DNA of 64,000 nucleotides from assembly GCA_013816245.1 (NCBI GenBank), contig JACDEU010000011.1, forward strand, positions 1-64,000, in the 5' to 3' direction. The notes beneath the pieces were generated by a model. The model ran no database searches. It worked only from the letters and a program-made list of their open reading frames with translations, and was not told the origin of the DNA. A program made the position numbers and the translations under genes. Shown here piece by piece: positions 41,461 to 42,968 of the stretch. Positions within the stretch are counted from its first letter, which is position 1; each line of letters begins with the position of its first letter. Source of the stretch: Actinomycetota bacterium (GTDB taxonomy: Bacteria > Actinomycetota > Thermoleophilia > Gaiellales > Gaiellaceae).

Positions 41461-42795
41461 ATGGAAGGCCCCATCCTCACCCCTCTTCGCGCGCCGCAGC
41501 GCGCGACCTCTGGCCTAGGCGCCCGCTTACGCCAGCTTCGCATTGCCGCGGGGCTGACGCAGTCGGAGCTCGCCGGCGATCGCTTCTCGAAGGAGTACGT
41601 CAGCCAGATCGAGCGCGGCAAGACGCGGCCGACGAAGGAGACGCTCGGCTGGATCGGCGAGCGGCTCGGCGTCGACGTCTCGTATCTCGAAACGGGCCAG
41701 TCCTGGGACGAGTACGCAGAGGTGGAGGCCGCGGTCACGCGTGCCGAAGCCGCTGTCGAAGGCCATCAGTACGACGATGCTCTCGAAGCGCTCGCAGCGC
41801 TCGAGTTTTCCCCGGAGGCACGCGAGCTCGAATTCCGTGCGCTGCTCGCCGGAGCCTGGGCCTGTATGCAGCAGGCCGACTTGAGGCCGGCTCTCGAGCT
41901 CCTCACGCGGGCGCGTGAACTGTCGGAGGAGCCCGGCTTCTCCGACGTCGAGCGGGCCGACGTCCTGTATCGGATGGGCATCTGCCGCTACAAGCTGACG
42001 TCGATCAACACGGCGCAAACCCTGCTGAGCGAGGCTCTCCACCTGGCCGACCGCTCGGGAATCCCATGCGACCGGCTTCGCTCCCACATTCTCGAGTGGC
42101 GCTCGCGCTGCTCGCGGCGCCAGCGCGACTTCGAGGCCGCGCGCGAAGACATCGAGCTCGCCCTCGAGCTCGCAGAGCAGCTCGACGACACGTTGACCGT
42201 CGCGCACATCACATTCCAGGCGTCGCTCGTCGCCGAGCGGGACGGACAGTGGCTACGCGCTCGGAACCTCGCCGAGCGCGCCAAGGAGCTCTACGAGGTA
42301 CACGGCGACCGGCAGAACCTCGGCCGGATGCTCAACAACCTCGGCGGATTGAACTATCTCCTCGGCAAGTCGGACGACGCTGTTTCGTATCTGAAGCGCG
42401 CGTTCTCCGTTGCGCTCGAGGTCGGCAGCGACGCCGATGCCGCCCAGGCGGTGTCGTCGCTCGCGCAGGTGCATCTCGGCGCGCATGACTGGAGCCTGGC
42501 CGAAGAGCAGTCGCGCCACGCGCTTGAACTGCTCGAAGGACGCCCGGACTTCCTGGACGAGATCGGCAACGCACACATCGTCCTCGGGCGCGCACTTCTC
42601 GAACAGGGTCGGCTCGACGAGGCGGAGCACGCCTTTGCCGAGGCCGAGCTCAACCTGTCACAGCTTTCCTCTGCCAGCCATCGCGCGGTTGCCTGGACGG
42701 CCCAAGGCGATCTCGCATCGCGACGCGGCGACGACAGTACCGCCGCTGCGCTCTACCGGCGTGCAGCAGAGGCCTTGCAAGACGTGAGGTTCTAG
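41461..42795 (+). CDS. HTH-TPR regulator (XRE type; RRNPP-like architecture)
   Basis: 444 residues. Residues about 18-78 are an XRE HTH domain (LGARLRQLRIAAGLTQSELA, FSKEYVSQIERGKTRPTKET). The remaining 360 are helix pairs with TPR character (ALEALAALEFSPEA; MGICRYKLTSINTAQTLLSEA; LNNLGGLNYLLGKSDDAVSY; IGNAHIVLGRALLEQGRLDEA). This two-part layout matches peptide-sensing regulators PlcR, NprR and Rgg, and also some peptide-independent XRE proteins. GGAGG precedes the ATG. Seventeen nt downstream is a small exported-peptide gene, a likely ligand precursor. Confidence 0.9.
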   Translation: MEGPILTPLRAPQRATSGLGARLRQLRIAAGLTQSELAGDRFSKEYVSQIERGKTRPTKETLGWIGERLGVDVSYLETGQSWDEYAEVEAAVTRAEAAVEGHQYDDALEALAALEFSPEARELEFRALLAGAWACMQQADLRPALELLTRARELSEEPGFSDVERADVLYRMGICRYKLTSINTAQTLLSEALHLADRSGIPCDRLRSHILEWRSRCSRRQRDFEAAREDIELALELAEQLDDTLTVAHITFQASLVAERDGQWLRARNLAERAKELYEVHGDRQNLGRMLNNLGGLNYLLGKSDDAVSYLKRAFSVALEVGSDADAAQAVSSLAQVHLGAHDWSLAEEQSRHALELLEGRPDFLDEIGNAHIVLGRALLEQGRLDEAEHAFAEAELNLSQLSSASHRAVAWTAQGDLASRRGDDSTAAALYRRAAEALQDVRF

Positions 42796-42796
42796 G

Positions 42797-42810
42797 AAAG
42801 GAGGTGATCA
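42797..42810 (+). promoter_or_regulatory. Full-length Shine-Dalgarno sequence
   Basis: AAAGGAGGTGATCA pairs with the whole 3' end of 16S rRNA (anti-SD GATCACCTCCTTT), much longer than usual, 2 nt before the ATG at 42813. It implies very strong, possibly post-termination, ribosome capture. Confidence 0.8.
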
Positions 42811-42812
42811 GG

Positions 42813-42968
42813 ATGCTGCGGAAATTCTTCTCATTGGGAGCTCTCGCCGTGGTCGCCGTGACTTTCGGCGTCGGCAACGCTGCTGCCGAGCCCAAGAGCG
42901 CTAGCTCGCCGGCTGTGACGCACAGCCACGGGACGTGGACTGAAGGCTTCTCGGACGGTCGCGACTAG
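42813..42968 (+). CDS. Short secreted peptide encoded after the HTH-TPR regulator
   Basis: 51 residues: a basic start (MLRKFF), a hydrophobic core (LGALAVVAVTFGVG), an Ala-rich cleavage site (NAAA-EP), and a 26-residue tail (EPKSASSPAVTHSHGT, WTEGFSDGRD). Processing by signal peptidase would release the tail. Position right after a PlcR/NprR-like regulator, with the strongest ribosome site in the window, suggests a pheromone precursor, by analogy with PapR, NprX and Phr. A simple small exported protein of other use is the alternative. Its stop shares CTAG with the flippase gene. Confidence 0.75.
   Translation: MLRKFFSLGALAVVAVTFGVGNAAAEPKSASSPAVTHSHGTWTEGFSDGRD

Follow-up and report, generated by a model that had tools for sequence, protein, structure and literature searches.

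The question raised by this locus is whether a regulator of a Gaiellales bacterium, encoded in the window (the whole 64-kb stretch of DNA that was analysed), is controlled by a secreted peptide encoded by the adjacent small gene, as in the RRNPP systems. RRNPPA genes were found in Firmicutes genera, all but one of which lie within Bacilli (PMC9765709), and the screen with RRNPP_detector covered Firmicutes and viruses alone (PMC10075063). Actinobacteria are described as signalling typically by small molecules (PMC10075063), and a review of actinobacterial quorum sensing contains no report for Thermoleophilia (PMC4748050). A search for Gaiella or Gaiellales in combination with quorum sensing revealed no title or abstract describing such a system. 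Cytosolic peptide-pheromone receptors of this kind have so far, it appears, been described essentially only in Firmicutes; since subscription journals and preprints lay largely outside the search, the novelty of the present system is provisional.

A conserved two-gene family in Gaiellales

The preliminary description reported a 444-aa XRE-HTH and TPR regulator, followed after 17 nt on the same strand by a 51-aa gene with a signal peptide, and both the ORFs and the Pfam analysis agree with this (Table 1), TPR_12/TPR_2 repeats being found beyond the HTH domain. The product of the small ORF, MLRKFFSLGALAVVAVTFGVGNAAA followed by EPKSASSPAVTHSHGTWTEGFSDGRD, is characterized by a basic N-terminus, a hydrophobic stretch and an AAA cleavage-type site; the tail past this site has the claimed length of 26 residues and ends with GFSDGRD. 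A Pfam search with the 51-aa peptide gave no match. The small gene was also said to have the strongest ribosome-binding site in the window, which is consistent with the motif scan: AAGGAGGTGATC, a full-length Shine-Dalgarno sequence before the ATG, is the sole site with 0 or 1 mismatch in the 64 kb (0.17 expected). The Shine-Dalgarno sequence of the peptide gene is similarly strong in most relatives.

Table 1. Features of the regulator and peptide genes in the window
Feature	Position	Strand	Basis or remark
Receptor (regulator) gene, XRE-type HTH and TPR superhelix, 444 aa	41461..42795	+	stop codon TAG
HTH DNA-binding domain, residues 19-76	41515..41688	+	Pfam HTH_31/HTH_3
TPR helices, residues 82-440, about nine helix pairs	41704..42780	+	AF2 model
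Putative groove positions of the regulator, Tyr177, Arg219 and Arg220			AF2 model and association scans
Shine-Dalgarno sequence AAGGAGGTGATC of the peptide gene	42798..42809	+	motif scan of the window
Propeptide gene, 51 aa	42813..42968	+	ORF
Signal sequence, propeptide residues 1-25, AxA-type site (AAA) at its end	42813..42887	+	sequence
Predicted mature pheromone GFSDGR(D)	42945..42965	+	clade conservation; exact mature ends putative

Whole genomes and GTDB contigs served as the source of relatives, which came down to 109 distinct receptors, 106 from Gaiellales and three class-level outgroups (L138-L140). The named records among them include Gaiellaceae and Gaiella MAGs, and among the sampled genomes of the phylum, strong receptor matches were confined to the class of the window. 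The expectation that every such regulator is followed by a short signal-peptide gene stood for most of the family and not as a strict rule. An intact small export-type gene lies directly 3' of the receptor in 101 of the 106 distinct Gaiellales relatives (100 in the scripted set and the receptor-peptide fusion L143), and in the scripted set the median gap between the two genes is 19 nt and the peptides have 28-68 aa. No small secreted gene was found behind the receptor in the distant outgroups as a group (30-35% identity), nor in the Gaiellales relatives L175 and L147. The peptide gene is degenerate in L124 and is cut down to 15 aa in L180 (MKARLILHRSWTDGH), where the signal core is gone and the motif SWTDGH is still there. 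L119 has a readable peptide and an interrupted receptor frame, the last stretch of which runs into the peptide frame, and was therefore ruled out as a second fusion. In L143:3256-4587 (+), one open frame comprises a TPR protein (..QDFRF), a linker and then MKKHLN..GFSSGG; this fusion could be real, or a stop codon could have been lost in the draft MAG.

The peculiarities of L180, which lacks most of the hydrophobic segment, and of L143 would suit a peptide that works inside the producing cell right after translation, as a cofactor or antitoxin-like partner and with no cell-to-cell step. This is the least probable of the alternatives considered here, and the chance given to it is slight: every other intact relative still has an export-type N-terminus, and both exceptions, being single loci in draft MAGs, may be errors or products of decay.

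The arrangement of the two genes was evaluated with a strict layout rule, which comprised an ORF of 20-80 aa, a start within 60 nt, a Shine-Dalgarno match of at least 5 and a hydrophobic segment. The rule was passed by 92 of 108 family loci, with the three outgroups counted as failures, by 0 of 20 further HTH-TPR genes taken from related genomes and by 2 of 449 background ORFs (3/450 non-overlapping, one of these being a family receptor). The gene order of the PlcR-PapR and NprR-NprX type, which had been recognized in the window, is thus no chance arrangement and holds in the family. Moreover, dN was lower than dS for the peptide gene in 6/6 species pairs tested; although the values are approximate, as few sites are available, these pairs show purifying selection on the peptide frame. 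The regulator and the peptide gene are a conserved two-gene family in Gaiellales.

The region upstream of the regulator was searched for repeats, and no palindromic operator was found. A block GTCCCTCGAT..GGGGGCACT..AGCGATC is conserved between species, and GTCCCTCGATTGGGGGCACTCTCGTAAGCGATC at window:41379-41460, conserved among close species, is a possible promoter or operator. Automated clustering of neighbouring genes, in which shadow ORFs of the GC-rich DNA dominated, yielded no shared regulon of the HTH-type loci. A lipoprotein-like gene with no Pfam match lies soon after the receptor at L065:6484-7353 (+), and its similarity cluster is present in about 25 family loci.

Peptide motifs and their relation to the TPR domain

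The peptides of the relatives have in common a charged N-terminal part, a core of hydrophobic residues and, at the C-terminus, a short motif that is in most cases [M/F/W]-x-D-G-x. Lys or Arg occurs among the first 10 residues in 101/101 peptides and the hydrophobic core in 100/101, and on these grounds the tail is predicted to face outward. DG is present within the last 14 residues of 72/100 peptides, as against 23.8 expected from shuffles, with a maximum of 39. An AxA motif was found within residues 15-32 in 44/101 peptides, and an AxA-like site is kept across the (uvrC-linked) clade of the window. In this clade the linker varies and [DE]GFSDGR is kept in 7/7 (DGFSDGR in six, EGFSDGR in the window); no second GFSDGR-coding site was found in the genome of the window. 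Two outlying receptor groups have deviant tails, RGFHEW/GFHQW in L133-L137 versus KGHGGGHMNW in L129-L132 and L183, and the peptides of the latter group also have a Thr-rich linker.

Five relatives carry tandem copies of the motif: five units of the SxFDGG type are present in L046, four in L160 and three each in L155 and L029, while the L033 peptide has four GMHDGHG units. Judging by the six-residue period of the repeats, the mature peptide may be about six residues long, and tandem pheromone copies have been reported for RRNPPA propeptides (PMC9765709, PMC11343458). The small protein might instead be held in the membrane and control the regulator as an anchor or one-component sensor, with no diffusible signal. 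Such a role would fit the many relatives that are just 28-40 aa long and have a hydrophobic core without an evident cleavage site, but the conserved tail is predicted outward and the receptor has no membrane segment, while the tandem copies and the AxA site kept in the clade of the window point to release. A membrane-held sensor is therefore regarded as very unlikely.

The genome of the window also codes for a paralogue of the regulator (61% identity), behind which there is likewise a small gene, and the two tails are GFSDGRD and GMGDGSEI. Two family receptors in one genome were found in 18 genomes, in 17 of which the tails are clearly different and each resembles the tails of its own receptor clade; the exception is G012, where both tails are similar (FADG). 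Such differing tails in one cell, each like those of its own receptor clade, separate the ligand code from species history.

The AF2 model of the regulator (mean pLDDT 91.4) has about nine TPR helix pairs, and some 350 of its residues can be aligned to RapI (Z 27.6) and to NprR (Z 26.9). Eukaryotic LGN chains, however, score higher (Z 31), and the TPR fold alone therefore does not place the regulator in the RRNPP family. The matches to LGN, APC/C and OGT structures (VIA, Foldseek) were rejected as signs of specific kinship and taken as generic TPR similarity. At the sequence level, Rap is matched weakly (E about 1e-4) and less well than eukaryotic TPRs, and the similarity to PlcR and ComR is limited to the HTH.

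The distance between tails is correlated with the TPR distance (Mantel r 0.60, p 0.001), also with the HTH distance held constant (0.51), whereas the correlation with HTH distance is -0.08 when the TPR distance is held constant. Divergence of the tail goes along with that of the TPR domain and not with that of the HTH. When about 360 receptor positions were scanned for association with the acidic residue of the motif, the top three were 219, 177 and 220, in this order. According to the helices of the model and the consensus repeat geometry of TPRs, these are probably positions 12 and 13 of the first helix in neighbouring repeats and would face the groove. Arg220 is kept in 75/77 receptors with acidic tails versus 5/14 others, and in eight receptors the acidic residue of the tail is kept although Arg219 is absent. 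The L041/L044 clade was rejected as a case of Arg219 change, as its near relatives already have Gln219 and the loss of Asp fits Arg220 to Ile; the score of '4 of 4' for position 219 is thus overstated. A tree-controlled test of Asp/Arg covariation found five state changes only, a number with which a tree-based sign test cannot be significant. Loss of the acidic residue of the peptide is associated with changes at the predicted groove positions 177, 219 and 220, an association graded as suggestive because the relatives are not independent and the state changes are few. The preliminary description had made its reading depend on a link between tail variation and the TPR groove, and such a link is suggested by the dependence on TPR distance and by the location of the three positions in predicted groove helices, with few independent events. 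When the L143 fusion was folded with its relatives, no confidently placed tail was obtained (blocks of pLDDT 30-59). The regulator and the secreted-type peptide make up a pair that is widespread in Gaiellales soil bacteria and apparently co-evolves.

These results also bear on the explanation that the small gene, co-expressed with the regulator, yields a secreted or membrane protein, such as a small envelope protein or antimicrobial peptide, which would be the output of the regulator, not its ligand, and whose tail would act outside the cell. The signal sequence and the strong ribosome-binding site are predicted equally well by this explanation, the positive N-terminus and hydrophobic core suit a membrane micropeptide too, and peptide import and binding belong to the inferred steps of the signalling model. 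An output product is nevertheless unlikely, if less so than the other two alternatives, as the tail follows the TPR domain rather than the HTH, the associated receptor positions cluster in groove helices, motif copies occur in tandem and receptors lacking the HTH keep a peptide gene with its own motif.

The TPR-only sister branch

These receptors without HTH (L141-L143, L145, L146 and L184-L186) form a deep branch, in which the peptide gene is likewise located downstream. Their tails have Ser/Thr in place of Asp (GFSSGG, GFSSGN, GFSTGN, GFSTGA and GFYSGL); the code is mostly GFS[ST]G. NarL/LuxR-type response regulators, the class to which the partners of Rap proteins in Bacillus belong (PMC3246441), adjoin 5/8 loci (L145, L146, L184, L185 and L186), some of which are also flanked by histidine-kinase-like ORFs, while L141-L143 have another gene context. 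A gene for a trypsin-like secreted protease is located behind the peptide gene at L142:548-1264 (-), just after 4587 (+) in L143 and at L146:4784-5596 (+), with the Pfam confirmation limited to L142 and L146; in L142 and L143 it starts at or overlaps the end of the peptide gene. This protease could mature the peptide of the TPR-only loci. It may also be, with chances slightly short of even, that Gaiellales have a peptide-pheromone superfamily of their own, perhaps independent of the Firmicutes RRNPP, in which receptors of the HTH type act on DNA, those of the Rap-like TPR-only type act on NarL response regulators, and their separate codes (xDGx versus GFS[ST]G) are in use side by side in one cell.

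Proposed mode of action and comparison with known systems

Summarizing, the earlier reading of the locus as an RRNPP-like peptide-signalling module is supported. The gene pair and its order, the ribosome-binding site, the signal-like sequence, the conservation, the motif, its tandem amplification and the tail-TPR correlation are the observations on which the model is built, and the two genes are probably a receptor-pheromone pair, in which a secreted, matured and re-imported peptide would control the TPR receptor. The small gene would be translated from its strong ribosome-binding site and the product exported by means of the N-terminal hydrophobic signal. Cleavage by signal peptidase at the AxA site and further proteolysis would then yield a mature C-terminal peptide, GFSDGR(D), about 6-7 residues long, which may accumulate outside and be taken up by an oligopeptide ABC importer. 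The genome of the window has 12 SBP_bac_5 matches, two type I signal peptidases and M50 proteases; such genes are common, and they are candidates for the export, maturation and import machinery. Inside the cell, the peptide would sit in the concave TPR groove of the regulator, its Asp probably near Arg219/Arg220, and thereby change DNA binding by the HTH domain. The sign of this effect and the target genes are, like export, exact maturation, import and binding, inferred elements of the model.

If true, soil bacteria of a major and largely uncultured group communicate by short peptides, and the predicted signals (GFSDGR and kin) are open to direct synthesis and testing. The many natural receptor-peptide pairs would also provide a data set for the joint change of receptor and ligand codes and would bear on the single versus repeated origin of RRNPP-like signalling.

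Among actinobacteria, XRE regulators that have a small gene as partner are likewise known from the WhiJ/BldB-type XRE and DUF397 pairs of Streptomyces; these pairs, however, lack a TPR receptor, and the partner protein is small and cytosolic and is not exported. RRNPP/RRNPPA systems are defined by a receptor with 5-9 TPR repeats arranged as a superhelix (PMC9765709), and the regulator has such a superhelix according to Pfam, its helix pairs and the RapI/NprR alignment. The short export-type propeptide gene that adjoins the receptor, immediately downstream in Bacillales subfamilies (PMC9765709, PMC10075063), is found in the window and in the family, and the N-terminal HTH, absent in Rap, was identified by Pfam in the regulator. 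Rap-Phr of Bacillus is resembled by the TPR-only branch in the missing HTH, the downstream peptide gene and the NarL/LuxR-type neighbours of most loci; Rap folds match, and tandem pheromone copies are known in Phr (PMC11343458). The TPR-only peptides differ, however, in their code, mostly GFS[ST]G, as do L141-L143 in their context, with the protease downstream in L142 and L143. With Rgg/SHP and ComR/ComS of Streptococcus, many relatives share very short hydrophobic precursors (28-40 aa), but motifs and arrangements are different, and Rgg, ComR and PrgX have degenerate TPRs (PMC9765709), whereas the repeats of the regulator in the window match canonical TPR models. In layout, the pair resembles PlcR-PapR and NprR-NprX of the Bacillus cereus group, which also combine an N-terminal HTH and TPR receptor with a short secreted propeptide immediately downstream on the same strand, the fold match to NprR extending over 347 residues; these systems belong to another phylum, and the Gaiellales motif is [MFW]xDGx. 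As the sequence similarity does not exceed that of generic HTH and TPR domains, descent from the Firmicutes RRNPP proteins is no more than a possibility, and the likeness of the Gaiellales pair to RRNPP systems would lie in the way of working.
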